From Nitrobacteraceae bacterium AZCC 2146 (GTDB lineage Bacteria; Pseudomonadota; Alphaproteobacteria; Rhizobiales; Xanthobacteraceae): a stretch of 64,000 bases of DNA. This document shows, one piece after another, positions 24,639 to 52,149 of this stretch. The stretch lies in contig JBAGRP010000001.1 of NCBI GenBank assembly GCA_036924855.1, forward strand, positions 3,844,001 through 3,908,000, written 5' to 3'. Both the position numbers and the translations under genes were made by a program. Below the pieces are notes generated by a model. The model did not search any database. It was not told the origin of the DNA and saw only the letters and a program-made list of their open reading frames with translations. Positions within the stretch are counted from its first letter, which is position 1. Every line of letters starts with the position of its first letter.

Positions 24639-24712
24639 GTCACCAGAGTGGCTTGCTGTCAATCTTTATCGGCACTATTATTCCGAATTCCTCGTCCGAG
24701 TCCTGTTTCAGA

Positions 24713-25624: not shown

Positions 25625-26094
25625 CCTTGAGCGAACTGCTGAGTGCGCGCAGTTTCGATCCCGCCGGCATGATCGCAATCCGCAATACTTTGCATCCGGA
25701 CGACGTCTCCACGGAGTTCCGTAGCATCGCCGACGTCATCAGCGCCAATGCGCTGCCGATGTATGACCGGATGCAGGATGGCCCGCAGATCGCGCACCAG
25801 GCATTGGTGCTGTCATTTGCCGCGATGGGCGACGGACAAGCACGGCTGACCAGCCTGCGCACCTTCCTGCTCAGGCGGCAGGGCAACGTCCCCGGCGACA
25901 TCGTCTACGACTACGACGCAGCGCATCTGCTGCACAGTTTCATCGCGCGCGCAGCAGCGCCCTGTTTCTACGATGCGATCGAGCAGGCCGGCCTCGACGA
26001 CCTGTTCGGCCGTCTGGTGGTGCAATGGCCGGAGCCGCTGGCGCGAAATATCCTGACGGCGACCGACGAGGCGCTCGCCATCATCGCGATGTAG
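25621..26094 (+). CDS. Hypothetical protein coupled to boxR
   Basis: A 157-residue soluble protein whose GTG start overlaps the boxR stop in GTGA. It is predicted mostly helical, without signal peptide or membrane segment, and no domain is recognised. Its last residues converge on livF with a gap of 6 bp. Its tight coupling to boxR suggests a role in benzoate metabolism or its control, but that is inference from position only. Confidence 0.7.
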   Translation: MTLSELLSARSFDPAGMIAIRNTLHPDDVSTEFRSIADVISANALPMYDRMQDGPQIAHQALVLSFAAMGDGQARLTSLRTFLLRRQGNVPGDIVYDYDAAHLLHSFIARAAAPCFYDAIEQAGLDDLFGRLVVQWPEPLARNILTATDEALAIIAM

Positions 26095-26100
26095 TCCGTC

Positions 26101-28587: not shown

Positions 28588-29455
28588 CCCGACGCCCGAG
28601 AATTCCGCTGGGCCGCCACACCAGGACCGCCGCCATCAACAGGTAGATCAGGATGCTCGAAACGCTCGGGAAAAATACCTTGCCGAACGTGTCCGTCAGC
28701 CCGATCAGCAACGCGCCGACGGCCGCACCAGCCACCGAGCCTATGCCGCCAAGCACGACGACAACGAAGGACAGGATGAGCATTCCATCCCCCATGCCAG
28801 GGAACACTGTTGAGATCGGCGCAATCACGATGCCACCGAGCGCAGCCAGGGCAATGCCGACGGCAAAGACGTAGCGGTTGACGCGATCGAACTTGATGCC
28901 GAGTACGCGAGCCATTTCGCGATTTTCCGCGCCGGCACGCACGATCATGCCGATCTTCGTCCGCGTGATAACGAAAAATATCGCGGCCGCCACCATGAGA
29001 CAGAAGACGCAGATCGCGAGCCGGTAGACTGGATAGGACAGATTGTCCGTGAGTTGGATTGATCCCGACAACCACGCCGGCGGCGCCACAGCGTGGACGT
29101 CCTTTCCAAACAGCAGCTGCCTGATTTCATCGATGACCAGGATCAGGCCGAAGCTGAGCAGCACCTGCGCCAGATGATCCCGGCCATACAGCAGCCGCAC
29201 GAACACGGTCTCCAGCAACATCCCGATGATAAAAGCGATGAGGACGCCGCCCAGCATCGCCAGGACGAAGCTCCCTGTCATCAGCACGATCCAGTACGCG
29301 AGGTAGGCGCCCAGCATGTAGAACGCACCGTGGGCAAGATTGATCACGCCGAGAATGCCGAACACCAGCGTCAGGCCGCTCGCCACCAGAAACAGGACCG
29401 TTCCGTACTGAACGGCGTTCAGGAGTTGAACGCTTACCGTGATGAGGTCCATCAA
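28580..29455 (-). CDS. livH: ABC transporter permease, LivH type
   Basis: A 291-residue permease with about eight membrane helices. LivH landmarks are ILGVINLAHGAFYMLGAYLA (about 33-52), the coupling loop RAGAENREMARVLGI (about 176-190), and GGIGSVAGAAVGALLIG near residue 240. Two ATG codons open the frame. It lies 30 bp after the binding-protein gene and overlaps livM, so the five genes form one operon. Confidence 0.92.
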   Translation of the reverse strand: MMDLITVSVQLLNAVQYGTVLFLVASGLTLVFGILGVINLAHGAFYMLGAYLAYWIVLMTGSFVLAMLGGVLIAFIIGMLLETVFVRLLYGRDHLAQVLLSFGLILVIDEIRQLLFGKDVHAVAPPAWLSGSIQLTDNLSYPVYRLAICVFCLMVAAAIFFVITRTKIGMIVRAGAENREMARVLGIKFDRVNRYVFAVGIALAALGGIVIAPISTVFPGMGDGMLILSFVVVVLGGIGSVAGAAVGALLIGLTDTFGKVFFPSVSSILIYLLMAAVLVWRPSGILGRRDV

Positions 29456-29485
29456 TACGATCCAACTCGCCCGACACGGGACGGT

Positions 29486-30694
29486 CTATGAAATCTTGCA
29501 GCCGCGCGCCGGATCATCGACGCTCGCCTGCGCCACCGAGATCATTTCGTTGCGGCCATTGCGGACTTCGCGCAGGTAGATGTTCTGGATCGGGTTATGC
29601 GCCTTGTTGAAGGACAGCGGCCCGCGTGGACTGTCGATCTTCGCGGCTCCCATCGCCGCGATCATCTTGTCGCGCGCGGTAAAATCACCGCCGACAGCGG
29701 TGAGGCCGACGTCCAGCAATGCCGCGCCATCGTAGCCCTGCACCGCATAGATGTCGCCGTCCTTGCCGGTCTTGGCCTTGAAGGCCTTGAGGAAAGCCAC
29801 GTTGGCCGCGTTGTCGAGGTTGTCGGCATAATGCAGCGTGGTCTTGATGCCGTTTGCGGCTTCGCCCTGCGCCTCGATGGTGCCGTCAGTGAGGAAGCCC
29901 GCGCCATACAATGGAATGGTCTTGTTGAGTCCGGCCGCCGCATAGTCCTTCACGAACTTCACAGCGCCGCCGCCTGCGAAGAAGCTGAACACGGCATCCG
30001 GCTTCAGCGTCGCGATCTGGGTGATCAGCGCCTGGAATTCGACCTCGGGAAACGGCACCGTCAAGTCCGCGACGATCTTGCCACCGTTTTTGGTGAAATT
30101 TTCTGCGAAGGCGCCGATCATCTCGGCGCCGGCGGTGTAGCGCCAGGTAATGGTGACGACGTTCTTGATGCCGCGCTCGGCCATCACCTTGCCCATCGGG
30201 AACGTGGTCTGCCAGTTCGAGAACGAGGTGCGGAAGATATTCGGCGCGCAAGCCGGGCCCGTTGCATCGTTGGCACCGGCATTGGGAATGATCAGAAGTG
30301 TATTGGTGTCGCGTGCGACCTTGACCATCGCCATCGCGACGCCGGAGTGCACGGTACCGACGACAACATCGACCTTCTCGCGGCCGACCAGCCGGTTCAT
30401 GTTGTCGGTAGCGGCTTCGGGCTTTGATTCATCGTCCACCTGGACGAAGGAGATGGCGCGGCCGCCGAGCTTGCCGCCCTTCTGCTCCACATACAGCCGG
30501 AAGCCGTCGTCGATAAACTGACCGAGTTTTGCGTAGGTCCCGGTGTAGGGCAGCATCATGCCGACTTTGAGCGGCGCATTCTGCGCAATCGCGGGGGACC
30601 GAAACGGCGACACGGCAGCGAGCGTGGTGGCACCGGCGGCGCCCGACAACAAGGCACGACGCGACAGCGGCCGCAGCAAACCATGACTGGACAT
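29486..30694 (-). CDS. Periplasmic binding protein of the LivK/aromatic-acid type
   Basis: A 402-residue type 1 periplasmic binding protein (Peripla_BP_6). Its N-terminus has a twin-arginine-like signal (LSRRALLSG, then a hydrophobic stretch, cut near AIAQ). The mature part begins with KVGMMLPYTGTYAKLG and carries the typical VDVVVGTVHSGVA block. The ATG at 30694 is spaced correctly from AGGGAG; an ATG two codons upstream is too close. Related proteins bind benzoate or hydroxybenzoates in Rhodopseudomonas and Bradyrhizobium. With badA and the box genes next to it, benzoate or a close relative is the likely ligand, but this is inferred. Confidence 0.88.
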   Translation of the reverse strand: MSSHGLLRPLSRRALLSGAAGATTLAAVSPFRSPAIAQNAPLKVGMMLPYTGTYAKLGQFIDDGFRLYVEQKGGKLGGRAISFVQVDDESKPEAATDNMNRLVGREKVDVVVGTVHSGVAMAMVKVARDTNTLLIIPNAGANDATGPACAPNIFRTSFSNWQTTFPMGKVMAERGIKNVVTITWRYTAGAEMIGAFAENFTKNGGKIVADLTVPFPEVEFQALITQIATLKPDAVFSFFAGGGAVKFVKDYAAAGLNKTIPLYGAGFLTDGTIEAQGEAANGIKTTLHYADNLDNAANVAFLKAFKAKTGKDGDIYAVQGYDGAALLDVGLTAVGGDFTARDKMIAAMGAAKIDSPRGPLSFNKAHNPIQNIYLREVRNGRNEMISVAQASVDDPARGCKIS

Positions 30695-30805
30695 TGGCAT
30701 TTCTCCCTTTGGATGGCTCCAGTGATCGGTTGAGCCCGATCTACTGACGGTGCTGCGAGTCGAAGTGTCCCGGAGGGGACCGCAAGCTCTCGCGACATGC
30801 GCATC

Positions 30806-30851
30806 ATAATTCACATAAATTTGAGAAAGCAAGAATTATAATTCATATTCT
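30806..30851. promoter_or_regulatory. Two copies of the badA/boxR motif upstream of the ABC operon
   Basis: ATAATTCACATAAA at 30806-30819 differs by one base from the copy at 24625-24638. GAATTATAATTC at 30833-30844 is identical to the palindrome core found there and is again followed by ATATT. The pair lies 110-155 bases before the binding-protein start. It suggests one regulator controls benzoate uptake and activation. Confidence 0.5.
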
Positions 30852-33529: not shown

Positions 33530-35335
33530 TTAACGGCGCAAGAGAGATCTCAAGGGAAACTTGGAAGCCTGACGGTGCTGTTCGCAAGATGGCGGTGACG
33601 AAGGTGCCGCGAGCACGTCGCACAAGGCGTTCGTTAGTCGCGCGCGCGCCGCCGAATGGGTGAAATCGTGGTCGGCATCAGGAATTATCGAAAACGACGC
33701 CTTCGGATAGCGGCGTAGCCGCGCGCCCCTTCTTCCCATATACGTGCGGAATTCGCCCAGCGCGTGATCTCCTTCCGAAAACAACATCGCTAGACAAACG
33801 CCGCGACTTTCGAGAATTTGGAAACGGCGATGACCCTCGCTGTAGAGCTTCTGGCCGACCCGGCCCGGGATGTGGCTGGCTATCAATGAGACAGTTCGAA
33901 CAAGGCGTTTTAAGAAAAAGATAACTGGAGCTTGGACGCGCAAATTGCCTGACAGCAGTCGTCTCAGGCTTCGCTTGCTAAACAACATCGCAACGGACCC
34001 GCCGATGGTTCGATGGGCCGATAACAAGGCTTCAGCGACGGTTTCCCTGGGGTCCCAGACAAAACGCATGATATTGATGGCGACGACATTGCGCACGCGC
34101 ACATCTTGCACCGCTGCCTGGAATGCGGCGTAAGCACCACTGCAGCGTCCGACCAAGGCGATCGGGCCGGCATCGAGCTTCTCTACATAGTCGATCGCGT
34201 GACGCAGGTCAGCAGTTTGCTCTTCCGAATAAAGCACTTCGGCCGGCGCGCCTACCGACGCCGCACTGTCGCCTATACCGCCGGCGTCGATTCTCAACGA
34301 AGCGATCCCGCGCTTCGCGAGGGCGCGAGCCTGTTCTACTGCCGCGCGACCCCAGCCGATGTGATAGTCGCGCCCCGAATTAGCGAGCACTGCGATAGCT
34401 GAAGGCCTTCGACCGAGCGGCAGACACAGGACTCCGAAGAGCCGCTCGTCTGGCCCAAACCGAACCGGTAACTCGTCATAGTGAGGTCCGGCGATTGGCC
34501 GCGCGGGCCCTACCACTTTGGCAGAACAGTTGGCGCCCGCGATTGGAAAATGCCCGAGATTGTCGATCCATGACACGATGCGTGTCAACGTGCCGAGCTG
34601 TGGACCAGCCAAACTTGGATTTTGCAGGATATTTTCATACCCCTCGTAGTCGATGGACGAAACATCGGCTCCGAGCGTCTTCAGGTGGTTGCCGATTGAG
34701 CTGTCGCGGGACATTTGACTGCGCTCAACCAAAAGGACCCGTGCGGCGGGAGGCTCAGTTGTCCGAGTAAGATCGATAGTTTTGATGGCTGCGGCGCGGC
34801 TACTTGCCAGTGGAATACCAGCGACGCTGTAGCCGTTGTCGGAAGGGTCGGGCCTGATACCCATCCGGTCGGTCAGCATGCGCGACCAGGCCTGAAGTTC
34901 ACGAAGATAGGCGCGGCCTTTGACGACCGGCGCCATCAGGACCGTTGCTGCGACGTCGGGTAATTCGGTTCCGAGTTGGGCGGCCAGACTAGCGCCAAGG
35001 CCTTGTCCGACAAGAACGAGTTCGATGCCGGGATTGTATTCCCGCAAGAATGCAACGCACTGACGGGCAGCAACAAACCAGTCAGAGATGCCTTCGGGGT
35101 CGCCAGCGAGATCGACAGCATCTGCCGTGCCGGGATAATCGAATCTGAGGCATGCATGACCTGCCGCGGCAATGTACTCGGCCAAAGCACTCCATGTGGC
35201 GCGGGTACACAATTCCTCATATCCGATCGGTGCGAGCAACAGCACCGCCTTGCGTCCGCACCGGTCAATGCAGCCCGCGTGATAAAAGCCGCCGAAATTA
35301 TCGAACGTTACAGGTGCGCCATATCGGGATGTCAT
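33530..35335 (-). CDS. Double alpha/beta hydrolase beside the aa:CP ligase operon
   Basis: A 601-residue protein built of two alpha/beta-hydrolase units (about 1-260 and 280-580). In unit one the nucleophile elbow reads GQGLG (110-114), with Gly where Ser is expected. In unit two it reads GRCSG with Cys398 as the possible nucleophile, and a HxxxH-like DADHDF segment near residue 560 may supply the His. It has no signal peptide. It is divergent from the carrier-protein operon, sharing a 500 bp promoter region. It could act on carrier-bound or released acyl products. A Cys-type elbow favours acyl transfer or slow thioester hydrolysis; this is inference. The first ~20 codons before ATG 35335 are not protein-like. 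Confidence 0.8.
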   Translation of the reverse strand: MTSRYGAPVTFDNFGGFYHAGCIDRCGRKAVLLLAPIGYEELCTRATWSALAEYIAAAGHACLRFDYPGTADAVDLAGDPEGISDWFVAARQCVAFLREYNPGIELVLVGQGLGASLAAQLGTELPDVAATVLMAPVVKGRAYLRELQAWSRMLTDRMGIRPDPSDNGYSVAGIPLASSRAAAIKTIDLTRTTEPPAARVLLVERSQMSRDSSIGNHLKTLGADVSSIDYEGYENILQNPSLAGPQLGTLTRIVSWIDNLGHFPIAGANCSAKVVGPARPIAGPHYDELPVRFGPDERLFGVLCLPLGRRPSAIAVLANSGRDYHIGWGRAAVEQARALAKRGIASLRIDAGGIGDSAASVGAPAEVLYSEEQTADLRHAIDYVEKLDAGPIALVGRCSGAYAAFQAAVQDVRVRNVVAINIMRFVWDPRETVAEALLSAHRTIGGSVAMLFSKRSLRRLLSGNLRVQAPVIFFLKRLVRTVSLIASHIPGRVGQKLYSEGHRRFQILESRGVCLAMLFSEGDHALGEFRTYMGRRGARLRRYPKASFSIIPDADHDFTHSAARARLTNALCDVLAAPSSPPSCEQHRQASKFPLRSLLRR

Positions 35336-35834
35336 GATCTTGAAACTATCACAGTTTTCCGAATCCAATTCGTCGGCCGAATGGCGCCAGCACATCGATA
35401 TTTTCGCTGCTAAGCAGCCGCCCTTGCCGGATGCTCATTTCTTAACTCAGGGGCGGCGAAGGTGTCATTCGATATCGCGTTCCATCATTAACGTGTGCTC
35501 GGCGCGGTGCGTTGCGCCGATAGTTAGCTATTTGCTAATCATGGTTCATTATCTCGCGCGATCGACTTGAACCCGCTGATCCTGACATCGGCGCCGTTGC
35601 TCGAAAGCACCCGACTAATAATCGCGACCGCAGCAGCCCGCGCCAGGATTGACGAAAGCGTCCATTTTACGTGATTGCATCTTCATTTTGTTAATCTTGA
35701 CGCCGGAACGGTCTGTTGCATTTGAGGCTTATTACGATTTTCTCTACCTTTGATTGGTATCTGGTCCATATCACTATGAGCCACTCGCATCCCCTGGCGA
35801 AGCGATGGACTTTTTGTAGCGTTGGAGAAACTTC
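35336..35834. promoter_or_regulatory. Divergent promoter region of the aa:CP ligase locus
   Basis: A 499 bp gap between the double hydrolase (leftward) and the carrier protein gene (rightward). It holds no convincing gene. AT-rich stretches at 35670-35760 are suitable for a promoter. GGAGAAAC at 35825-35832 is the ribosome site of the carrier-protein gene. I could not identify a specific operator. Confidence 0.45.
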
Positions 35835-36080
35835 ATGCGTGACCGTGTCCGCACCATTGTCGGATCGCTGAACCTGCTTCCCGTTCCAGTCGATGGCTTA
35901 TCCGACCAGGACAATCTGTTCGATGCAGGCATGACGTCGTTCGGTTCAGTTCAACTGATGCTAGCGGTCGAGGAAGAATTCGATATCGAATTTCCCAACA
36001 GTCTGCTGACTCGCAAAACATTTGCGACGCTTGGTGGGTTGATTGCTGCTGTCGAGCAGCTCGTCTCTGAGAAAGTCTAG
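35835..36080 (+). CDS. Carrier protein of the amino acid:[CP] ligase system
   Basis: An 81-residue acyl-carrier-type protein: four short helices and the phosphopantetheine attachment site DAGMTSFGSV with Ser35 at the start of helix II. The Thr-Ser-Phe form differs from the DSL of fatty-acid ACP and fits the stand-alone carriers that serve amino acid:[carrier protein] ligases in rhizobia. It is the first gene of a five-gene operon and ends 4 bp before the dehydrogenase start. It would carry a thioester-bound amino acid after 4'-phosphopantetheine addition by a transferase encoded elsewhere. Confidence 0.9.
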   Translation: MRDRVRTIVGSLNLLPVPVDGLSDQDNLFDAGMTSFGSVQLMLAVEEEFDIEFPNSLLTRKTFATLGGLIAAVEQLVSEKV

Positions 36081-36084
36081 GGTC

Positions 36085-37293
36085 ATGATCCCGAACGCGG
36101 TGAAGCAAGGCATTGACGTGCCCGAAGCCGTGTCCTGGCGTGACGCGATGCGGCGGGTTGCCATCGACGTTGCTTCGCCAAATGCCGCTCTCGCGGACCT
36201 AACCGCGACGTTTCCAGCGCAAACATTCGAAGCTCTTCGTCGTAACAAGATGCTCGGCTTGATGGTACCTAGAAGCCTTGGTGGCCAGGAATTGGAATTG
36301 CGCAAGATTGCCAATCTTTGCGCGATTCTCGCGGGCGCGTGCGGCGCCAGCGGCATGATTTACGCCATGCATCAGATCAAGCTATCGAGCCTGGTCGCCC
36401 ATGGGATGCAAACCGAATATCATCGCGCCCTCATGCGCGATGTAGCTATCAAGCAGCTACTGATCGCGTCGTCGACCACGGAGGTTGGTATCGGCGGCGA
36501 TCTGCGGATATCGAATTGCGCGATCGAGACGACGGGTGATCGGATTTCGCTGACAAAGCAGGCAAGTGTCCTGTCTTATGCCGCGGAAGCCGATATCATC
36601 ATGGCGACCGCGCGGCGCGGTCCGGCGTCGGTCGGGTCCGATCAGGTCCTGATCGCGCTGCGGCGTAGCGACTATCAACTTCAACGCACAGCCGAGTGGA
36701 ATACGTTGGGCATGCGCGCCACCTGCTCCGAGGGTTTCCTGCTGACGGCAACGGCCGGAGCCGATCAGATCTTTCCCAAGCCGTTCCACGAGATCGCAGT
36801 GCAATCCATGCTGGCCACCGCGCATGTGCTGTGGGCGAGCGTCTGGTTCGGGATCGCGACCGATGCTTTGTCGCGCGCGCATGCCTCGGTTCGAGCAACG
36901 GCGCGGCGCGTGCCGTCCGATTTCGCGGGGCCGCTCCCAGGCGCGGCTCGACTGGCCGCGGCCACCGCCAAATTGCAGACGTTCAAGTCCACGCTCGTCG
37001 CCCATATTGAGCGGTTCGAGACGGCGAAGCGCAACGAAGACGATCTCAGCTCGATCAATTTCGCGATCGAAATGAACAATCTCAAGGTCATGGCTTCGAC
37101 CATGGCCGTCGACATCGTACGTGAAGCGCTGATGGTGACGGGCATCGCCGGCTATCGCAACGACGGTCCATTCTCGGTCGGCCGCCATCTCAGGGATGTG
37201 CTGTCGGCGCCGCTGATGGTGGCTAACGATCGCATCCTCGCCAACACCGCTGGCCTCGTGGTCGCGAGCCGATTTGACTCAGATCTGGAGTAA
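36085..37293 (+). CDS. Acyl-CoA dehydrogenase-family flavoprotein
   Basis: A 402-residue member of the acyl-CoA dehydrogenase superfamily: helical N-domain ([12 protein letters not shown] near residue 55), middle beta domain ([13 protein letters not shown] near 130), and C-terminal helical domain. The middle domain and C-terminus resemble the DszC/HpaB-like branch that acts on unusual substrates. The usual catalytic Glu could not be placed with confidence. ATG 36085 follows the carrier-protein stop by 4 bp and its stop overlaps an ATG of the ligase gene. By context it may oxidise the carrier-bound aminoacyl group, as similar dehydrogenases do for prolyl-carrier proteins. Confidence 0.85.
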
Positions 37294-37298
37294 TGGTG

Positions 37299-38228
37299 AT
37301 GAACGCGCCTGTTAAAGCCGTGCAAAGTCCGGAAGCATTTCTCGACGCCCTGTTCGACGAGTCGATCCTGATCAGGACCGGCGTCGATGGCCTCTATGGC
37401 CGCGCCGGTGTGTTCGAAGAGGTCATCGACGGGTTCGAAGCCGCGGTGACGAAAATAGCCGTCGGCGATCAGGCGACGCGGATTCATTTTCCGCCGGGCA
37501 TGCCGCGCAAGAATCTTGAGAAAGCCGGTTACCTGAAGAGCTTTCCGCAATTGGCCGGCTGCGTCCACTCTTTCATGGGCGACAACGCCGACCATGCCAA
37601 GCTCATCGGCATGATCGAGCGGGGCGAGGACTGGACCGAGATGCAGGATGCGACTGAAGTCGCACTGACGCCGGCTGCCTGCTACCCGCTGTATCCCACT
37701 GTCGCGGCGGAAGGTCCGGTGCCGGAAGGCGGTCGGCTGTTCGATCTCAAGTCATACTGCTTCCGCCATGAGCCCTCGAAGGATCCGGCGCGGATGCAGC
37801 TGTTCCGGATGCGCGAATTCGTCCGCATCGGCACGGCCGACGAAGTGACGTCTTTCCGGGCCACCTGGCTCGAGCGCGGCGAAAAGCTTATCGCTTCGTT
37901 GGGCCTGCCTTGCGTTATCGATGTGGCCAACGATCCCTTCTTCGGGCGCACTGGCCGTGTCATGGCGTCGAGCCAGCGCGACCAGGGTCTGAAATTTGAG
38001 TTGCTGATCCCGGTCGCCAGCGATGAAAATCCGACCGCGTGTCTGTCATTCAACTATCATCAGAACCATTTCGGCAGCCTGTGGGGCATGCATTTCGCAG
38101 ACGGCGAAGTCGCACATTCGGCCTGCGTCGGCTTCGGCCTGGAGCGGACGGCGCTGGCGCTGTTCCGTCACCACGGCACCAAGGTCGACGCGTGGCCCGC
38201 GGATGTCCGCCGCGTGCTGTGGGGCTAG
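37299..38228 (+). CDS. Amino acid:[carrier protein] ligase (SerRS-like)
   Basis: A 309-residue class II aminoacyl-tRNA synthetase homologue without tRNA-binding arm. In Bradyrhizobium and Agrobacterium such enzymes activate glycine or alanine with ATP and load it on a small carrier protein. Motif 2 is visible as [20 protein letters not shown] and motif 3 as [13 protein letters not shown]. The zinc site of atypical SerRS is kept: Cys128 (AACYPLYP), Glu173 (RMREFVRIG) and Cys276 (HSACVGFG). I start at ATG 37299, eight bases after GGAG; an ATG at 37293 overlaps the upstream stop but is too close to the ribosome site. Which amino acid it uses cannot be read off. Confidence 0.92.
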
Positions 38229-38231
38229 GCC

Positions 38232-39224
38232 TTGCAAACCGCCTGCGCCATCGATGGACTGGATCCCGCAACCTATGTGCGTCACGGGCTGCATGATCCC
38301 GCGCGCAACTGGCCCGAGACGAACTGCTACGTCGATCTGCTGATCGAAGTACTGGCCCGACGCGGGCATGATCCCCGGGCCGCGCTGGCTTTCACGGTCG
38401 CGCAGGATTACGAGGGCGACCAGTTCACGTTTTTCAAGATCCCGGCCGCCGATCTCGCACTGTTGTACGGCGTCGAGATTCTGGAGCTCGCGATCTTCGA
38501 TCAGCTGGAAGATCACGCGCGCGTGCAGTTGACGCGGGGCCGTCTGCCGCTGATCGAGGTCGATTCTTACTACCTGCCGGATACCCGCGGCATCACCTAT
38601 CGCCACAGTCACAGCAAAACGACCATCGGCGTCAACGTCCTGGATTCGGTCGACCGCCGGCTCGATTACTTTCACAATGGCGGATACTTCCGCCTCGAAG
38701 GCGAAGACTTCGAGGCGCTGTTGCGGCCCGTGCGTGACAACGGCCTGCCGCTTTTCCCTTACGTCGAATTCATCCAGTTCGGTCCGGCGTCTTCTGCCCA
38801 TAAGCAGATCGAAATGTCTCGCACGTTGCTGGCGCAACATCTGCGTCGTCGTCCGGCGCGGAATCCATTTACCGCATGGGGCGACGTGATCGGTGCCGAC
38901 ATCGGCCGGCTGATGGGACGGCCTCCCGAGTGGTTTCACACTTACGCTTTCAGTACATTACGTCAGGCCGGTGCGAATTTCGAACTGCTCGCGACCTATC
39001 TGGCGTGGTTGCAGGAGCACGGTGACCCGGCGCTGGAGCGCGCCAGGCTGGCCGCGGAGGCGATCGCCAGCGGCACCAAGATCATGCAGTTTCAATTCGC
39101 CCGCGCCTCGGCCCGCGGCAAGGTTCCGGATGTGGCGGATGCCATCCGCCAGCTCGCGACCGATTACGATATCGCCCTGGACAGCCTCATGAACGGTTTC
39201 GCGGCTCGCGGCGCCGCGGCATGA
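38232..39224 (+). CDS. DUF1839 protein, possible thiol acyltransferase
   Basis: A 330-residue DUF1839-family protein. Its first half has a pattern like papain/C39/BtrH-type thiol enzymes: an N-terminal helix starting with Cys32 (ETNCYVDLLIEVL), then IEVDSYYLPDT, then His125/His127 in YRHSHSK, and Asp145 in RRLDYFHN. The second half is helical. BtrH of butirosin biosynthesis transfers an acyl group from carrier protein to an aminoglycoside; by analogy this protein could move the amino acid from the carrier to an acceptor. That step is inference. The start is TTG 38232, just 3 bp after the ligase stop. DUF1839 is known to co-occur with these ligases in rhizobia. Confidence 0.8.
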   Translation: MQTACAIDGLDPATYVRHGLHDPARNWPETNCYVDLLIEVLARRGHDPRAALAFTVAQDYEGDQFTFFKIPAADLALLYGVEILELAIFDQLEDHARVQLTRGRLPLIEVDSYYLPDTRGITYRHSHSKTTIGVNVLDSVDRRLDYFHNGGYFRLEGEDFEALLRPVRDNGLPLFPYVEFIQFGPASSAHKQIEMSRTLLAQHLRRRPARNPFTAWGDVIGADIGRLMGRPPEWFHTYAFSTLRQAGANFELLATYLAWLQEHGDPALERARLAAEAIASGTKIMQFQFARASARGKVPDVADAIRQLATDYDIALDSLMNGFAARGAAA

Positions 39225-39257
39225 TTTCTCTGTGACCTGATCGGCCTGTTGATTGCC

Positions 39258-41738
39258 ATGACCGACATCCGCGCCATGACGGGACGCAAGGTTCAGCCGC
39301 TCGACAGCGGCTGGGAACTGGCGCTGTCGCTCCCTCACGCATGGCAGGAGCCCAGCGGGTTGAGTGAAGCGGTCTGGTTGCCCGCGATCGTCCCTGGAAC
39401 GGTCGCGGGCGCGCTGCGGGCCCTCGGACAATGGAGTTTCGATGACCCTCAACCGCTGCATGGCAAGGACGTCTGGTACCGGCTCCAGGTCAGTGGAAAC
39501 GGCAAGCGCAAGCTGCGGTTCGAGGGGCTCGCGACATTCGCCGAGGTTTTCCTCGATGGCAGGCTCATCCTGACCGGGAGCTCGATGTTCGAGCCGTATG
39601 AGGCCGAGATTGTGCTCGGCGGTGAGCATTGGATGCATATCGCCTTCAGGAGCCTCCGCGGCGCGCTGGCAAGAACGAAAGGTCCACGGGCACGCTGGAA
39701 GACGATGATGATCGAGGAGCCGCGGCTGCGGTTCCTGCGCACCACGCTGATCGGGCATATGCCCGGATGGTGCCCGCCCGTCGATGTGGCCGGCCCGTAC
39801 CGGTCTGTGCTGCTGATCGAAGAGGGAATTGTTCGCGCCGACAATGTCGATCTGCGCAGCCGGCTCGACGACACCGAAGGCGTTCTGACGCTCGCGCTCG
39901 ATCTGTCGGGAGTGGCCGAAGGCGTGACGCCGGTCCTGCACTGCGCCGGGGCGGAGGCGCTGCTGAGGCCGCTCGGCACGGAAGCGCCGCCGGCCGGTGC
40001 GGCGCGCTGGCAGGGCACACTGCGGATCCCCGATGTGGAGCTGTGGTGGCCTCACACCCATGGTAGCCCGACGCTCCATGCGGTGACCATCGACATCGGT
40101 ACCGTCCGGATCGATTTGGGAGAGGTTGGATTTCGCCGGATCGCGGTCGACCGCGGGCCGGACGGAAACGGCTTCACCCTGCATGTCAACGGCGTCCGCA
40201 TTTTCTGCCGCGGCGCATGCTGGACGCCGATCGACGTGGTGAGCCTGCAGGCATCTGACGCCGATTACGCGCAGGACCTTGGCCTGATGCAAAGTGCTGG
40301 CCTCAACATGGTCCGTCTCAGCGGGACCATGGTCTATGAGATCCCGGGTTTCCACCGCCTCTGCGACAGGCTCGGCATCATGGTCTGGCAGGACGTCATG
40401 ATGGCCAATTTTGATTACCCGTCGGATGAGGCCTTTGCTGAAGTCATCCGCAGCGAAATCACGACGGTCGTTCGCCGGCTGAGCGCGTCGCCGTCATGGG
40501 TCGTGATGTGCGGCGGCAGTGAGGTTGGTCAGCAGGCTGCGATGATGGGCCTGCCGCGCCAGATGCGCGACGTACCGCTGGCGGAAACCGTCATTCCCGA
40601 AGTTTTGGCGGACTGGTGTGACGTCGCCTATGTGCCGGGTTCGCCGTCAGGCGGCGTCCTGCCCTTCGTGGCCGAAGCGGGCCCGTCGCATTATTACGGC
40701 GTTGGCGCATATTTGCGGCCCCTCGACGATGCGCGCCGCGCCAATGTCCGCTTTGTCTCCGAGTGCCTAGCTTTCGCCAACCTGCCGGACGATCGCCACT
40801 TCGCTGACCATCGGCTCGATCCGACCGGCGATCCGGAACGCTGGCTCGCCGGCGTCCCGCGCGACGGAGGCGCGTCCTGGGATTTCGACGATGTGCGCGA
40901 GCATTATCTTCAGGCGCTGTGGAACGAAGACGGCCGCAGCCTGCGCCCCAGCGAACCCGGGCGCTGGCGCCAGCTATCGCGCGCGATCACAGCCGAGGTC
41001 ATCGAACGGACGATCGACGAATGGCGCCGCCCGGCCTCCACCACCGCTGGCGCGCTGATATGGCTGTGGCGCGACCTGCAGCCCGGCGCAGGCTGGGGCC
41101 TGCTGGATTGCCATGGCCGCCCGAAATCGGCCTTCTACGCACTGCGCCGCGCCTCGCTGCCGCTTCGCTTGTCGATCACTGACGAAGGCACCAACGGGCT
41201 CTACCTGCATCTCGTCAACGACACGCCGCGGGCCGCCGCAGGCAAACTGACATTGCGTTGCCTGAGAGACGGCAAGACGCCGGTGATCGAAGTGGCGCGC
41301 AATGTGACCATCGCGCCGCATGCCGGGCTTTCAATCGGAGCGTTCGAGATGTTCGACCGGTTCTTCGACGCCGGTCACTGCTATCGCTTTGGGCCAGCGG
41401 CGCATGACACCGTGCATGCAACATTCGCAGCCGAGGACTCCGATCAACCTCAAGAGGCCTTTCATTTTCTTTGCCCCCCGACGTCGGCGGTTGACCAGAC
41501 GATTGGCGCAGTGCTTGGTGAGGACGCCGCCGGTTTCTTTCTCGACCTGCAAGCCGCCACGGCGACGCGTTTCATTGAAATCGCGGAGAACGAATTCCTG
41601 CCCGACGACAATTATTTCCACATGGCATTTGGGCATCGCAAGATCGTGCGTCTGGCACCGCCCCGGCATTCGTCCGATAATCTGCGCCCATCGGGGCGGG
41701 TCTCTGCGCTCACTCTGAGAGATCACGTCAAATACTGA
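39258..41738 (+). CDS. Glycoside hydrolase family 2 protein, beta-mannosidase-like
   Basis: An 826-residue GH2 enzyme: jelly-roll sugar-binding domain (about 15-180), immunoglobulin-like domain (about 185-280), TIM barrel (about 290-620) and C-terminal beta domains. In the barrel, the acid/base Glu422 lies in CGGSEVGQ (beta-mannosidases normally have an Asn-Glu pair) and the nucleophile Glu502 lies in RFVSECLAF. Both glutamates are kept, so it is probably active. It is the last gene of the carrier-protein operon, 33 bp after DUF1839. It has no signal peptide, so it acts inside the cell, perhaps on a glycoside that receives or loses the amino acid. Ribosome site is weak; TTG 39249 is an alternative start. 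Confidence 0.87.
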   Translation: MTDIRAMTGRKVQPLDSGWELALSLPHAWQEPSGLSEAVWLPAIVPGTVAGALRALGQWSFDDPQPLHGKDVWYRLQVSGNGKRKLRFEGLATFAEVFLDGRLILTGSSMFEPYEAEIVLGGEHWMHIAFRSLRGALARTKGPRARWKTMMIEEPRLRFLRTTLIGHMPGWCPPVDVAGPYRSVLLIEEGIVRADNVDLRSRLDDTEGVLTLALDLSGVAEGVTPVLHCAGAEALLRPLGTEAPPAGAARWQGTLRIPDVELWWPHTHGSPTLHAVTIDIGTVRIDLGEVGFRRIAVDRGPDGNGFTLHVNGVRIFCRGACWTPIDVVSLQASDADYAQDLGLMQSAGLNMVRLSGTMVYEIPGFHRLCDRLGIMVWQDVMMANFDYPSDEAFAEVIRSEITTVVRRLSASPSWVVMCGGSEVGQQAAMMGLPRQMRDVPLAETVIPEVLADWCDVAYVPGSPSGGVLPFVAEAGPSHYYGVGAYLRPLDDARRANVRFVSECLAFANLPDDRHFADHRLDPTGDPERWLAGVPRDGGASWDFDDVREHYLQALWNEDGRSLRPSEPGRWRQLSRAITAEVIERTIDEWRRPASTTAGALIWLWRDLQPGAGWGLLDCHGRPKSAFYALRRASLPLRLSITDEGTNGLYLHLVNDTPRAAAGKLTLRCLRDGKTPVIEVARNVTIAPHAGLSIGAFEMFDRFFDAGHCYRFGPAAHDTVHATFAAEDSDQPQEAFHFLCPPTSAVDQTIGAVLGEDAAGFFLDLQAATATRFIEIAENEFLPDDNYFHMAFGHRKIVRLAPPRHSSDNLRPSGRVSALTLRDHVKY

Positions 41739-42851: not shown

Positions 42852-44509
42852 GGCTCTGACGCAACTTCGATGACGGTTTGCCGCAACTAGGTGGCGCCTA
42901 TCAGCCGAGCTTGCAGAAGGTCGATCTTCGCCCTTCCATACATCTGGCGTTTCACGAGCTTTAGTTTCGTGATCTGCCCTTCTGTCTGGCCATTGGACCA
43001 AGGCTCGGTGATGGCGGCACGGACGGCGGCTTTGTCTTTGATGATGCCACTCGCAAAAGAGGCGATCAGGCTCATGCTGGCGGTGGCGATCCATGGATCG
43101 AGATCTGCGACGAGCTTCTTGCGCACCATGGCCTGAAAGCTTTCGACGAGCATGCGGGCTTCGACGAGCGCGGGAACGCGCGCCTCGATGGCGGCGATGG
43201 TGACCGTATCTGCTTTGCTAAGATTGTCGCGCGCCGTGGTCATCAAGCGTGAGATTGTTCTCGCGGATGGAACTTTTTGCAGTTGTTGATTGGTAGCCTT
43301 CTCGGCCCGTCGTCGCCGTGTTGTCCACTCACTGACTACACGCAAGGAGCCTTGGAAGCCTTGCCCTTGCAAACGACGCCAGATCTCTGCGCCGTTACGG
43401 CAGCCCTCGCTCCATCGCGCATCCAGAAAGGGCAAGTGGGCATCGAGCGTGCTTTGCCGTGTCCGGAAGACATCCGCGCTCTCGCCGCGACTAACTTGGC
43501 GAACGAGTTTGCGGCTGTGTCCTGTTCGACGGACGATCTCCTTAAGCGGCACGGCGTCTCTGACGAGCGCCATGATGGCGGCATTCGTCTGCTTGCGCTG
43601 GAGATACCCTTCATACTGCAGCCGTTCCGCGCAAGTGAGCAGTTCAGTATTGATCGTCGTCGCACCGATTGCGGTGCGGATCACCCGCATGGAACGGCGT
43701 ACCGCGTTGAGAAAGGCCGCGCTTGCGTTCTCCATCAGGTGCCACCGGTCGGCAACCTGGATGGCGTCGGGCAGCGCCTTTGCCGCGGCCTCACCGTAGC
43801 CTCCGCCGCGGTCGCGCGATACGACCCTGATCTCCGGATGGTCGGAAAGCCAAGCCCGCACCGTTGCAATCTCGCGATCTGGAAGCAGCGTTACGATCCG
43901 CCGCCTCTCCAAATCGCACACGATTGTTCCGTAGCGATGGTTCTTACGAAAAGCCCAGTCGTCGATGCCGGCGACGATCAGAGGCTCCATTCGCGGGCGG
44001 GTTCGTCGCCTAACAACACGCAGCAGAGTATCGTTGCTCACCGGCAGCATCAGTCGCTTGGCGAAGCTCGCTGCCGGTCTGCCGCCGAGGGCCAGCCCCA
44101 GATGGTGGACGATGCATTCCAGCCGTGCCGTCCGGCGCGACCGGGTCGGGAGAACATCGTCCCCGAACCGTTCCGCGAAAATCCGCCGCCGACAATGTGG
44201 AACCTCGCAAACGAACCGTCGCGTGATCACCCGGAGGCGTATTTGCTTGCCTGCACACGGCAAATCCGCGACTTGTCTGTCGTATCGGCTATGGATTCGG
44301 CGCGATCTCGCCCCGCACAATGGGCACTCCGCCATGCCGCCTTCGGATCGGACGGCTAAAATAATCGAGTCAGATGAATCGCTTACGCTCTCGATAACCA
44401 ACCCACTCGGCACAAGCGACGAAATTCGAATACCGGCTTGCATGGCGCTGGTTCCCCCGTTGGAGAACCGCAAGCTCGGCAGAAAAATCATCAGATGTGA
44501 GTCAGACCC
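42852..44509 (-). mobile_element. ISL3-family insertion sequence
   Basis: Imperfect terminal inverted repeats are visible: 42852-42873 (GGCTCTGACGCAACTTCGAT and GA) and the complement of 44488-44509 (GGGTCTGACTCACATCTGAT and GA), matching at 16 of 22 positions. The element is about 1,658 bp and holds one transposase gene. The eight flanking bases on each side do not match, so there is no clear target duplication. Either the flanks have diverged or recombined, or my ends are off by a few bases. Confidence 0.75.
42887..44443 (-). CDS. ISL3-family transposase
   Basis: A 518-residue transposase with an N-terminal zinc-ribbon (CPLCGARSRRIHSRYDRQ, then Cys and FVCEVPHC by about residue 85), a helix-turn-helix, and a DDE domain beginning with GIDDWAFRKNHRYGTIVCDL (about 160-180) and continuing with SRDRGGGYGEAA and QVADRWHLMEN. 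The C-terminal catalytic segment includes SNGQTEGQITKLKLVKRQMY. I start at ATG 44443 because the longer frame would begin outside the right inverted repeat. The gene looks intact. Confidence 0.92.
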   Translation of the reverse strand: MQAGIRISSLVPSGLVIESVSDSSDSIILAVRSEGGMAECPLCGARSRRIHSRYDRQVADLPCAGKQIRLRVITRRFVCEVPHCRRRIFAERFGDDVLPTRSRRTARLECIVHHLGLALGGRPAASFAKRLMLPVSNDTLLRVVRRRTRPRMEPLIVAGIDDWAFRKNHRYGTIVCDLERRRIVTLLPDREIATVRAWLSDHPEIRVVSRDRGGGYGEAAAKALPDAIQVADRWHLMENASAAFLNAVRRSMRVIRTAIGATTINTELLTCAERLQYEGYLQRKQTNAAIMALVRDAVPLKEIVRRTGHSRKLVRQVSRGESADVFRTRQSTLDAHLPFLDARWSEGCRNGAEIWRRLQGQGFQGSLRVVSEWTTRRRRAEKATNQQLQKVPSARTISRLMTTARDNLSKADTVTIAAIEARVPALVEARMLVESFQAMVRKKLVADLDPWIATASMSLIASFASGIIKDKAAVRAAITEPWSNGQTEGQITKLKLVKRQMYGRAKIDLLQARLIGAT

Positions 44510-44617
44510 AAATTTGAGCGCCGATTGACACTGAACTCTTCCCACACCTCGCCACGGGTAATTTCCTCAAGCGCGATTGATGGCCACGCCTGTTGGCCTA
44601 CCTGATGTAACGAGGTC

Positions 44618-46834
44618 CTACGCGTCGACGTCGTGGAAGATCGAGCCCGCTGTGTCAGGGGGCGGCACACTCGATTTTGCCATCGAGGAGGGGCTCCATG
44701 CCGAGCTATCCGGAGATGGCTGTTGGTCCTCGAGCATTTTAACATGGGCGTCGATCTCGGCATATAGCTCGTCGAAGGCCTCATCGCACTCGAGCTCGAA
44801 GTAGGCCTGAGCCAACTGCAAATTCTCTTTGAAGTCCTTGTACATGCCCACCTCGTCATCGGAGGAAAAGCGGCCGAATTCGCTAAAGACTGCGGGAATG
44901 TCCGAGAGCCACTCCTTACGGAACGCCTCTGTGTATTCCGCGAACTCTGCCTCCTTGAAGACCTGCTGCAGTATCTTGTCCTTAAGCGGCTTTGCGTCTA
45001 GCCAGGTGATCGAACGCTTTTGTATGTCGGCAACGATGCCTTGGCGCGCCTTCTCGGGAAGCAGCTCCCACGACGCCAGGGCGGCGATCAGGAGTTTGCC
45101 GCCAAACGTCTGAACGCTCGCTTTCCCTTCGGCAACCCACTCCAATATGTCGGGTCGCGCTTCCAAGATCAGGGCGAGGAAAGCCTTTTCGCACCGAGCG
45201 CCCAGGAAGGACTTCAGAGATTCGTCCAAAGGGCAGGCCTTCAGCCGGGCAACCAGCCCCGGATAGAGCACGGGCGGGATGCGGATGGACTCGTCTTCGG
45301 CTGCCTTCGGACGGCACGCCACTTCATTGAGCAGACGGTCAAGCGTTGCACCATGAGCGTAGAGTTCCACCAACTCGGGCGAAGCAGAGACTAGGGTGGC
45401 GAAGGCATCGGAGACCGTGGCATGGCGGAATACCCACCGATCGCCGTCATCTTCCGACACTAGCCGCGTCAGGCTGTCGTTAAGGTGCTGCATCGCGCGA
45501 GCCAAGTCGGCTTGCTTCACGCCCATAAGACGGGTGACCATTTCGAGCGCCGGTGTAGCCGTGATCGGAGAAGGTACTCCGGTTTGCGAATTAAGGAAGA
45601 TTAGAGCGACCGCGGCGCGGGACGCATCGTCCAACTGCGCTAGCACCTCGGTCAGGAACTCGACCGGGTGCTCCACCAGGCGCGTTAGCCGCTGTTCGCT
45701 GATCACGAGGTTTTTGGTGAAAAGCGGATCGCCAAGCCGACGGGCGGTTTCTGGTAAGAAGGCCTTGTTGACAGCGATCGCCAGCAGGAACGGCTTCAGG
45801 CGGTTGCGCATCTTCTGGGGTTGGACCCGGCGCACGTGATTATAGAGCATTTGGGCGCGTTCTTCATCGGAAAGCGCGTGCACGTTGACGACGACCTGAC
45901 TCTCCTTGAGCAGTGAGAAGGCACTCGTCTTCAAGTGGGGTCGGGCTGCCTCCCAGATGTAGTTGCGAGAGGTGAAGACGATGCGCGCGCCGCCTTCGAC
46001 GGCGGCACGCAAGGTGCCCAGTTCGGCGTTCCAACGGCTCATCCGAGAGGCGTCGAAGTGGTTGGGGCCAAAAGCATCGTCGACCCAAAGGAACTGCTTC
46101 TCGCCGGGGTGCCAGAGGTGCAATTGGTCTGGTGAGTTTATCTTAAGGGCGCCCAAGCAACCATCGTCGATGGCGCCGAGCGCCAGGATCGCCGCGATCG
46201 TTGATTTGCCCGAGGCTGGGTCGCCCAGAAGGATGACGAAGCCATGCTCCTGCAACGCTTTTACCGCGGACCGGTACGCATCCGTCGGCACGAAGCAGCT
46301 GAGGTCAGACCCCATGGAATCCAAAATGGCTTTAGCCTGCTTGTAACCATGGCCGGTGATGATGTGGGACAGGTCACCGATGCCGTAGACACGCGGCACT
46401 AGCATCCGCAGTATCGGGTTCTCGGTTAACTGCTGGACGATCCAGGTCCCGCCGAACGTCCGGCACTTTTTGACCCCAACGGCTTCGAACGCGGCGCAGA
46501 TCTGGGCATCAGCCTCACCGGAGACGCCGGCATTGGTCAGGATGACATAGTCATCAGCGAGCCCGTCAGCCGCAAGCTTCTCGGCCTTGGGCAGTTCGTC
46601 TTTCAGATCGGACAGACCCAGATTGGCTCCGGGCTTCCCGAGAAATTTGCATTGAATGGTAGACTTAACCGTCGTCCCATCCGGCCCTTCCCAGCGCCCA
46701 AGGAACGCGGCGTCGCGCCCGCCGTCGTTCGATCCGAGAAAGGTCTGCACCGGCCGCTTTAAAATCTCCGCGACCACGGCCGCGGCCAAGTCCTGAAATG
46801 CCTTCCAACCCAGCTGACTGAGGTCATAACTCAC
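44618..46834 (-). CDS. Mrr-like nuclease fused to a STAND-type NTPase (defence)
   Basis: A 738-residue protein with a restriction-endonuclease-like N-domain (about 1-140; GGRD with Asp41, then Gln61-Cys-Lys63 as the QxK motif). A P-loop NTPase domain follows (Walker A GDPASGKST 204-212, Walker B FLWVDDAFG near 252, arginine-rich VFTSRNYIW near 295), then an alpha-helical C-terminus without recognised repeats. This layout matches nSTAND3-type anti-phage proteins in which a sensor NTPase controls a DNA nuclease. The start is GTG, 18 bp downstream of the AbiEii-like gene on the same strand, so it belongs to that operon. Family call is by motifs; the phage trigger is unknown. Confidence 0.8.
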   Translation of the reverse strand: MSYDLSQLGWKAFQDLAAAVVAEILKRPVQTFLGSNDGGRDAAFLGRWEGPDGTTVKSTIQCKFLGKPGANLGLSDLKDELPKAEKLAADGLADDYVILTNAGVSGEADAQICAAFEAVGVKKCRTFGGTWIVQQLTENPILRMLVPRVYGIGDLSHIITGHGYKQAKAILDSMGSDLSCFVPTDAYRSAVKALQEHGFVILLGDPASGKSTIAAILALGAIDDGCLGALKINSPDQLHLWHPGEKQFLWVDDAFGPNHFDASRMSRWNAELGTLRAAVEGGARIVFTSRNYIWEAARPHLKTSAFSLLKESQVVVNVHALSDEERAQMLYNHVRRVQPQKMRNRLKPFLLAIAVNKAFLPETARRLGDPLFTKNLVISEQRLTRLVEHPVEFLTEVLAQLDDASRAAVALIFLNSQTGVPSPITATPALEMVTRLMGVKQADLARAMQHLNDSLTRLVSEDDGDRWVFRHATVSDAFATLVSASPELVELYAHGATLDRLLNEVACRPKAAEDESIRIPPVLYPGLVARLKACPLDESLKSFLGARCEKAFLALILEARPDILEWVAEGKASVQTFGGKLLIAALASWELLPEKARQGIVADIQKRSITWLDAKPLKDKILQQVFKEAEFAEYTEAFRKEWLSDIPAVFSEFGRFSSDDEVGMYKDFKENLQLAQAYFELECDEAFDELYAEIDAHVKMLEDQQPSPDSSAWSPSSMAKSSVPPPDTAGSIFHDVDA

Positions 46835-46852
46835 TATTGCCCACCGTGTTCG

Positions 46853-47722
46853 TTACCCTCTTAGGCCGAGCGCTCGTAGCCAAGCGTCCACCTGCCCGAA
46901 TGCATCCTGCTGCCACTGTTCGGGGCTGCGATCACCGAGAGTTTGCGTGTCTTGCACGAACTCGCGGACGCTGGTCGGGCCGAAGCTGTCCACTGTTTCA
47001 AACTTTCCATTGATATAGGTGTAACCCTCTTTACCTTCGCCGTGGGCGAGAACCGGCCCACAATCCTCGGCGAGCACTTCAGGCCCACCCAGATAGTTTC
47101 GAATGCAATAGTAGATGTCGTACGCATCCTTCCGTTTCAAACGGTTCTGGATCGCAAAGCCTTTCATGGCGAGCAGCGCAGGAATGGAGGCGACCGCGAT
47201 GTTGACGTGGTTTGCGCCGCCATCAGGCATGTCACCGGAAATCGCGACGAGCTTGTAGAACCGGAGGGCCAATTCGGCACCCGATGCGCGCTGCACGGCA
47301 AAATGTTCGATCAGTGGCGGCTTGTTCTTTTTGAAAACCGCGTCGAATGGACGCAAGAAGTCGACCACCACATCGATAGGCTCACCACCATCCCCGACAG
47401 GCACGGTTCTGACGAGCTGGAACAGGCGATGATCGTCTCGCTGCTCATAGCCGTTGCCCATAAGTGCCTCGACAAGTCGGGCATACTCGCCATCACCTAA
47501 GGCTTCAGCATCGAGACTGAGATCGACGTCGAGCGTCCCGACATGCGGCATTTCTTCATTCTCGAGGAGAAGCCATGGCACCGCACCGCCGATCACAGCG
47601 AATTTGCCTTTAAAACTTCCGAGTATTTGGCCGATTTCAAGGAGCACTGATTTTACGGCGGCAGTGGTGCGGTCATCGTACTCGGCCGCTGATTGCGGAT
47701 CTGGCGGCACTACTGGGGCCAT
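46853..47722 (-). CDS. AbiEii-like nucleotidyltransferase
   Basis: A 289-residue protein of the nucleotidyltransferase superfamily. The helix-turn GGAVPWLLLE (45-54) followed by TLDVDLSLD (63-71, Asp65 and Asp67) forms the metal site, and Lys-Arg-Lys-Asp-Ala-Tyr-Asp near residue 200 is the AbiEii-type second motif. AbiEii toxins are nucleotidyltransferases of type IV toxin-antitoxin systems that block growth during phage attack, some by adding nucleotides to tRNA. ATG 47722 has AGGAG eight bases ahead and overlaps the end of the upstream gene by 13 bp. Toxin activity is not shown. Confidence 0.8.
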   Translation of the reverse strand: MAPVVPPDPQSAAEYDDRTTAAVKSVLLEIGQILGSFKGKFAVIGGAVPWLLLENEEMPHVGTLDVDLSLDAEALGDGEYARLVEALMGNGYEQRDDHRLFQLVRTVPVGDGGEPIDVVVDFLRPFDAVFKKNKPPLIEHFAVQRASGAELALRFYKLVAISGDMPDGGANHVNIAVASIPALLAMKGFAIQNRLKRKDAYDIYYCIRNYLGGPEVLAEDCGPVLAHGEGKEGYTYINGKFETVDSFGPTSVREFVQDTQTLGDRSPEQWQQDAFGQVDAWLRALGLRG

Positions 47723-48789
47723 TGTAATTTCTCCTGACGCAGATACTCCGCAGCCTCTTGTCCCCTCTCCCCTGCTGCAGTCAGGTCGAGATAGGTTTGA
47801 ACTGGACTTGAACAGACGACACCGGGTGCGGGCTCGACTGTATCAAGCAGTGGTCCTTCATCCCTCAGGACCGTTACCACGACATTCTCACCTTTCGTGG
47901 CGGATGAGAGCTTAAAGGCATGTTGTAGGCGTTCAAGACCTCCTTCATCGGCGTACAAGAACTGGCTGCCTACCCGCGCATATGGCGCGATCCATTGCGC
48001 TGCGGAGAACGATGCGAGAATTGCACGGCCGCCTTGCTTTGACGCGTTCAGCACACCGCGAGCAGCTTGATCGAAGGCCTTGCCGTGCAGCGTACTATAG
48101 AAGGTTTGGCGATCGCCGGCCGGCGGGTCATAGGAATTCCGCCAGGCGTCCAGCACGGCGTCCGGTCGAGTGAGCGACATGCCATCGTCGCCAATTTTAA
48201 CCCATTCCCGATCCACAAGTGCAGTACGCACATTGCTGACGTGACCGAGACTGACATCGGCTGCTTCTGCAAGCTCGGCGACACGCCAGGCGTAGCGGGG
48301 GTCGCGCAACATAACTCTCAGAATCTGGGCAGACTTTGGTTTGAATATCGATTTCAACTCGCGGCGTTCGATCGCAGGACGGGTTGGTACTTTGCGATCG
48401 ATGAACACGCCCCCAAAGACGAGGCGGCAATTTCCCTCGAAATCGAGAAACCCAACGCCCTCTTCTTGGCAAAGAGCCTGCGCTTCGGGAGATAGATACG
48501 GTGCGATGAAGACGGGAACTGCATCTTTCCGTACACGCTTCATAGCTCTGTGTATCTGGAGGAGGCCCGCGTGGACGTGGCGCGGCTGTCCATTTGATTT
48601 GGCTTCGCAGACAAGAATGTGTTCGCGCCCAAAGGCGCTGACATGCGCAATAACATCGATTTGGTGATCGAAGGCGATCGGCTCGACCTCAATTCTTTCA
48701 ATGGAGACGGGCGGAACATCATTGAGAACGGAGCGCAGAGCCTCCGCAGCTTGGGTCTCGACGTTCATTATTTCGCGAAATTTCAGCAT
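47710..48789 (-). CDS. AbiEi-like antitoxin/regulator with nuclease-like N-domain
   Basis: A 359-residue protein whose middle is a winged helix (about 148-205; ILRVMLRDPRYAWRVAELAE) and whose C-terminus resembles AbiEi-type antitoxins. The N-terminal 100 residues show the order Asp45, Glu62-Ala-Lys64 (DVIAHV then LVCEAKSN), which is the core of PD-(D/E)xK nuclease folds. It probably represses its own operon through the inverted repeat just upstream and offsets the downstream nucleotidyltransferase. Whether the nuclease-like domain cuts or only binds DNA is open. ATG 48789 is used; an ATG seven codons later lacks a ribosome site. Confidence 0.75.
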   Translation of the reverse strand: MLKFREIMNVETQAAEALRSVLNDVPPVSIERIEVEPIAFDHQIDVIAHVSAFGREHILVCEAKSNGQPRHVHAGLLQIHRAMKRVRKDAVPVFIAPYLSPEAQALCQEEGVGFLDFEGNCRLVFGGVFIDRKVPTRPAIERRELKSIFKPKSAQILRVMLRDPRYAWRVAELAEAADVSLGHVSNVRTALVDREWVKIGDDGMSLTRPDAVLDAWRNSYDPPAGDRQTFYSTLHGKAFDQAARGVLNASKQGGRAILASFSAAQWIAPYARVGSQFLYADEGGLERLQHAFKLSSATKGENVVVTVLRDEGPLLDTVEPAPGVVCSSPVQTYLDLTAAGERGQEAAEYLRQEKLQWPQ

Positions 48790-52116: not shown

Positions 52117-52149
52117 TCAAATTGCCTTTCCCTTTCTCAACGACTGATC

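Follow-up and report, generated by a model that had tools for sequence, protein, structure and literature searches.

The stretch of DNA analyzed here (the window) comprises 64,000 nucleotides (positions 3,844,001 to 3,908,000 of contig JBAGRP010000001.1) of Nitrobacteraceae bacterium AZCC 2146 (Rhizobiales, Xanthobacteraceae), whose genome is a single contig of 7.64 Mb. It harbors an operon of five genes coding for a carrier protein (CP), a flavoprotein with the acyl-CoA dehydrogenase (ACAD) fold, an amino acid:[carrier protein] ligase resembling seryl-tRNA synthetase (SerRS), a protein of the DUF1839 family, and a GH2 glycosidase (Table 1). On balance, and with moderate confidence, this operon is read as a stand-alone miniature non-ribosomal assembly line joining an amino acid to a sugar, probably for a surface polysaccharide.

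Judging by the protein families, the SerRS-like ligase would charge CP with a small amino acid, and the flavoprotein would oxidize, likely hydroxylate, the carrier-bound aminoacyl group. DUF1839 would then accept this group on Cys32 in a ping-pong mechanism before handing it on to an amine. The acceptor is likely a sugar amino group, and the sugar is probably destined for a surface polysaccharide. Late steps may fall to the GH2 enzyme, on the sugar part, and to a two-domain hydrolase encoded next to the operon, on a thioester or ester; the bond cut or made by each of these two is the least certain step. In its most specific form, the proposal is possible but doubtful: the CP-bound amino acid would be hydroxylated by an ACAD-fold oxygenase, DUF1839, as a relative of antibiotic-condensing enzymes with a rearranged Cys-Thr-His triad, would form an amide between it and an amino sugar within a secreted polysaccharide, and the hydrolase pair with its Cys elbow would finish the transfer.

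Operon Conservation and Distribution

All five open reading frames are intact on the plus strand, and the gaps between them, from CP to GH2, amount to 4, −1 (an overlap), 3, and 24–33 bp. The first-pass annotation, made from the window alone, had listed five genes on one strand with gaps of 33 bp or less and a carrier site at Ser35, and both claims hold: CP scored 40.9 bits with PF00550 and 90 bits with NF005480 (cut-off 72), and Ser35 lies inside the attachment motif and is kept in 80 of 80 aligned sequences. The same annotation proposed comparing gene order across related genomes, with a lack of conservation as a refuting outcome for its proposed pathway. The search for relatives with the window's own ligase retrieved 556 in named genomes, and the best 80 were examined; since they were chosen via this ligase, the sample leans towards the operon type of the window. 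The CP, ACAD, ligase, DUF1839, and GH2 genes follow one another in identical order and strand in 75 of the 80 (median gaps of 3, 3, 4, and 15.5 bp), and this conservation is far beyond chance. Four of the five exceptions (L059, L075, L092, and L097) come from short contigs that break off within or near the module, and the fifth (L067) has CP and ligase only. The L067 locus (9655–14225) encodes CP and a ligase of the window's type (type I), with ACAD, DUF1839, and GH2 all missing; an alpha/beta hydrolase and luciferase-like monooxygenases are encoded nearby, and the enzymes for oxidation and transfer may have been naturally exchanged there.

The ligase family is present in 95 of the 397 genomes of the order (above the cut-off in 88), and the window genome has one ligase of the NF005479 type. 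Its closest counterparts, 94–97% identical, belong to two Tardiphaga metagenome-assembled genomes and a strain labelled Bradyrhizobium sp. NFR13. Across the phylum, DUF1839 was detected in 16 of 398 sampled genomes, always together with the ligase: 12 of them are in the order's ligase list, and 4 represent a family outside the order, where the ligase gene stands beside DUF1839. The module also occurs on plasmids. Ten plasmid records were opened, eight with usable gene tables and two without, and the five genes are in order at all eight annotated loci, hosted by Rhizobium, Azospirillum (2), Mycetohabitans, Caballeronia (2), Shinella, and Phyllobacterium. Overall, the module may be present in several hundred genomes, judging by the number of places encoding a ligase relative, and its hosts include partners of plants, insects, and fungi.

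The Ligase and Its Two Types

The ligase scored 486.3 bits with NF005479 (curated cut-off 357). Residues C130, E175, and C278, presumably the zinc ligands as in the Bll0957 work, are kept in 81 of 81 aligned sequences, in agreement with the intact Cys/Glu/Cys zinc site reported by the first-pass annotation. Aminoacyl-carrier ligases were reportedly described in 2010, and no established end product of these enzymes was found; glycine or alanine is reportedly the load of the studied homologs.

A sister type of the ligase is found in eight genomes of the window's family (L138–L145), where its gene follows an ACAD gene and the carrier gene is divergent; both DUF1839 and GH2 are absent from the stretch around it. 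The crystallized Bll0957 (3mey) scored 714 bits over 327 residues with one of these ligases (L138) but just 318 bits with the window ligase, which scored 324 bits with another PDB entry, 4h2w. Moreover, the segment after DPFFGR ends with AVSQKQQ in the eight sister-type ligases, and with AxxQR in the window ligase, in the 11 of the 80 named loci compared at this segment, and in four relatives from outside the order. The AxxQR-type form is also that of 4h2w, reportedly an engineered swap altering carrier choice. Hence, since Bll0957 resembles the sister type, results obtained with it are not transferable unchecked to the window operon; its closeness to a neighborhood without DUF1839 and GH2 is an addition to the first-pass annotation.

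More distant SerRS-like ligases of ~410–450 codons, below the family cut-off, were seen in L146–L150, adjoining a gene for an MBOAT acyltransferase and one for a common protein without a Pfam match. These genes perhaps represent a different acylation system driven by an aminoacyl-tRNA synthetase (aaRS) homolog.

The ACAD-Fold Flavoprotein

The predicted model of the flavoprotein (pLDDT 90) has the ACAD fold. At the same time, the position of the catalytic Glu of SCAD and MCAD is occupied by I or V wherever the aligned sequences have letters (78 of 78), and that of IVD, placed by hand alignment, by A, S, T, or C in 80 of 80, so the catalytic Glu defining an acyl-CoA dehydrogenase in the enzyme sense is found at neither position. 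In the Foldseek ranking of the model, the monooxygenase DszC came first and the nitrososynthase DnmZ tenth. The flavoprotein is likely a hydroxylase of the carrier-bound aminoacyl group.

Several findings count against this assignment. Dehydrogenases are at the top by VIA Z, with monooxygenases within 1–2, and they also top the sequence search; as modelled, the fold does not separate the two classes. Among the genes common to most loci, neither a flavin reductase nor an electron-transfer flavoprotein (ETF) was seen, although housekeeping flavin reductases could possibly serve the enzyme. Two Azospirillum records have ETF-type genes ~8 kb beyond the module, as would suit a dehydrogenase. By analogy with ColB1 and prolyl-ACP dehydrogenase, the flavoprotein might be a true α,β-dehydrogenase that acts on the carrier-bound amino acid with another base; the group transferred would then be a dehydro-amino acid. 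This is considered rather unlikely in view of the Glu missing from both usual positions of the carboxylate base and of the Foldseek order; besides, glycine, if it is the load, would offer no β carbon for desaturation.

DUF1839 as a Predicted Aminoacyl Transferase

The predicted model of DUF1839 matches, over its full length, the fold of the carrier-dependent amide-forming enzymes CcbD, CtaG, and AziU2/U3; one enzyme among the matches acts on an amino sugar. C32, found in 79 of 79 sequences at the start of helix 32–43, has the position expected of a Cys nucleophile, and T130 and H148 are invariant. K283 and R291 are invariant among the 78 sequences with letters at these positions, and R295 is found in 62 of the 78; a fixed offset, used in place of a residue alignment, would put them at R312–R324 of CcbD, the basic patch holding the carrier.

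The transferase assignment has its own difficulties. The triad reported from modelling (PMC10318531) is Cys-(Thr/Ser)-His, unlike Cys-His-acid. No sequence similarity of DUF1839 to PDB members of the fold was detectable, no BtrH_N (PF14399) match was found in Pfam, and the comparison with an alignment of nine BtrH_N proteins gave an hhalign probability of 4% and an E of 0.011 (0.044 for an unrelated control). In addition, DUF1839 is missing from 17 of the 80 genomes chosen for their ligase, which implies that loading and oxidation serve other ends too.

Two genomes from outside the order carry second DUF1839 genes (L137, 11934–13193; L135, 91–1317) near ManC, Wzc, and the two-domain hydrolase. 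A 2023 survey of papain-like enzymes considers DUF1839 from its genomic context as a hydrolase; such an enzyme, protease- or amidase-like, would act on cell-wall glycans or release acyl groups. The second copies lend this idea some support, since no carrier or ligase gene stands alongside them, but we regard it as improbable.

Probable Link to Surface Polysaccharides

The proposed destination of the aminoacyl group, a surface polysaccharide, draws on the neighborhoods in relatives. The gene for the chain-length protein Wzz was surveyed in 80 ligase genomes (77 of the order's 88 and 3 others), 63 with and 17 without DUF1839. It was located within 25 kb of the ligase in at least 27 of the 63 (2.0 expected under uniform placement), spread over at least 6 of 10 families, and in at least 5 of the 17 (0.5 expected). 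Eight loci, picked for a nearby Wzz, jointly contain genes for glycosyltransferases (GT), Wzz/Wzc, Wza, Wzx, Wzy, WecG, GH5, and polysaccharide deacetylase; in one (L174), the two-domain hydrolase is embedded in a run of GT, GH5, hydrolase, flippase, GT, and WecG genes. In relatives outside the order, genes for GDP-mannose synthesis (ManC), Wzc, and an initiating sugar transferase are found near the module.

The window itself fits this picture less well. No Wzz gene occurs within 1.4 Mb of the module in its genome, and its copy has no surrounding polysaccharide cluster, the nearest sugar genes among those scanned being GT4 and GH130 (49840–53457). A polysaccharide cluster is present at only one of the eight annotated plasmid loci (Shinella), as read by eye from incomplete gene tables, and no gene for making the acceptor was seen in the shared block. 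The module could instead yield a free small aminoacyl-sugar metabolite, akin to the lincosamide core or a thiol cofactor, with the polysaccharide genes being mere neighbors. This would suit the distant Wzz of the window genome, the plasmid cassettes of five or six genes, seven of eight of which lack an annotated polysaccharide cluster within 12–18 kb, and the major facilitator superfamily exporter gene just upstream of the module in Phyllobacterium. We nevertheless hold a free metabolite to be unlikely, given the recurrence of Wzz across families and the hydrolase within the GT/flippase/WecG run of L174; a polysaccharide destination is preferred.

Putative Late-Acting Enzymes: GH2 and the Two-Domain Hydrolase

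The closest PDB relatives of the GH2 enzyme are the beta-mannosidases 5n6u and 2je8. According to the alignment with 2je8, the acid/base E425 is kept in 75 of 75 sequences, and the nucleophile E505 in 74 of 75 with letters at this position. Trimming of the sugar, the role given to this enzyme by the first-pass annotation, would be a candidate function.

The module has a sixth partner, absent from the first-pass annotation: a relative of the two-domain hydrolase is encoded within ~10 kb in 57 of the 80 loci. Its gene comes directly after GH2 in 29 of them (20 on the same strand, 9 on the opposite one), no more than 0.6 kb upstream of the carrier in 5, of which 4 are divergent like that of the window, ~2.4 kb upstream of the carrier in 3, and elsewhere in 20. 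The Azospirillum and Mycetohabitans copies form one operon with GH2, whose end they overlap by 4 bp. In all eight proteins scanned, the N half resembles exosortase-A hydrolase 2 (TIGR03101) and the C half hydrolase 1 (TIGR03100). The protein differs from these exosortase-A-associated hydrolases in being fused into one chain and in remaining below both curated cut-offs in all eight (in the window, 81 vs 168 and 52 vs 203 bits for TIGR03100/TIGR03101). The elbow of the N half features Gly or Arg in place of Ser (28 and 30 of 58 sequences, respectively), and that of the C half has Cys in every one of the 52 sequences with letters. A Cys elbow is typical of acyl transferases such as polyhydroxyalkanoate synthase, which makes a transferase activity, in place of a hydrolase one, conceivable.

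Features and Surroundings in the Window

Table 1. Genes of the module and the adjacent two-domain hydrolase; positions refer to the window.
Feature	Position	Strand	Remarks
Carrier protein (CP), 81 aa	35835..36080	+	phosphopantetheine site Ser35; PF00550, NF005480
ACAD-fold flavoprotein	36085..37293	+	PF02771, PF00441, PF08028 above cut-off; without the usual catalytic Glu
Amino acid:[carrier protein] ligase, SerRS-like core	37293..38228	+	NF005479
DUF1839, predicted Cys-dependent aminoacyl transferase (CcbD/CtaG fold), candidate nucleophile Cys32	38232..39224	+	PF08893, 394 bits
GH2 beta-mannosidase-like glycosidase	39249..41738 (TTG start) or from 39258 (ATG)	+	GH2 N-terminal domain PF22666
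Two-domain alpha/beta hydrolase, divergent from the operon	33530..35395	-	TIGR03101 and TIGR03100, both below cut-off

Downstream of the operon, an ISL3-type transposase gene (42887–44545, minus strand) separates it from three consecutive genes (44618–48789, minus strand) coding for an nSTAND3 NTPase (a partial match, PADLOC candidate PDC-S73) and an AbiEii/AbiEi-like toxin–antitoxin pair. The latter genes are possibly a defense cluster, and the transposase hints at a mobile border. The GT4 mentioned above has a long C-terminal part and precedes, on the plus strand, the mannooligosaccharide phosphorylase-like GH130, a second mannose-type enzyme near the GH2 gene. Genes that look like a box-type pathway for aerobic benzoate breakdown, together with those of an AMP ligase and an ABC transporter of the branched-chain type, occupy ~17015–30832, as judged by eye, with Pfam covering three of the genes.

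Comparison with Earlier Predictions and Known Systems

A note added in proofs to a 2010 paper links the SerRS paralog with a carrier, a redox enzyme, the unknown but strongly conserved protein Atu2574, a glycosidase, and liposaccharide genes; it predicts that an amide bond attaches the amino acid to a cell-surface sugar through the sugar's amino group, monooxygenation being likely (PMC2922099). By gene numbering, Atu2574 would correspond to DUF1839. The prediction was given in that passage without fold evidence for Atu2574, and the two-domain hydrolase is not named in it. The present analysis agrees with it and adds the fold match, the catalytic residues, the statistics, the sixth partner, and the two ligase types; no experimental test of a DUF1839 protein or of the 2010 prediction was found in the open-access literature searched. 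The first-pass annotation had arrived at the same sequence of carrier loading, modification, and transfer to a sugar, which stands as a prediction in light of the DUF1839 model matches and the polysaccharide genes near the module in relatives. Its term "uncharacterized" applies to the chemistry, as far as the literature searched shows, but not to the neighborhood and its functional reading, both in print since 2010 (PMC2922099).

Within the same ligase family, the nearest known system is that of Bll0957 from Bradyrhizobium (PDB 3mey, 4h2s–4h2y), for which glycine is reportedly the substrate. It would differ in belonging to the sister type, as judged by its likeness to the L138–L145 ligases and not from the B. 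diazoefficiens locus itself. The neighboring bll0958 is an ACAD gene (PMC10888616).

As to the transfer step, CcbD/LmbD of lincosamide synthetase shares with DUF1839 the transferase fold, the Cys nucleophile, and a carrier-bound amino acid as donor, but its carrier is within a protein of the non-ribosomal peptide synthetase type, its acceptor is a thiooctose, its triad is Cys-His-Glu, and no sequence similarity was detected. CtaG (closthioamide) and AziU2/U3 (azinomycin), likewise without detected sequence similarity, share the fold over nearly the full length; their donors and acceptors are presumably other than those of DUF1839. The loader of the butirosin pathway is not known to be an aaRS homolog. 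The logic of this side-chain pathway with BtrH is parallel, comprising a loader, a carrier, a flavin oxygenase, and a papain-like transferase to an aminoglycoside, as outlined in PMC2922099 and PMC10318531.

The predicted fold of DUF1839, being that of carrier-dependent amide-forming enzymes, turns the gap concerning the end product into an in vitro question for three proteins. If the proposal is true, there would be a hidden class of N-(hydroxyaminoacyl) polysaccharides in plant-, insect-, and fungus-associated bacteria. Likewise, the module would represent an unrecognized route, built from a tRNA synthetase, for placing amino acids on sugars, in parallel to the assembly of mycothiol, with its ligase resembling cysteinyl-tRNA synthetase, and of the lincosamides.

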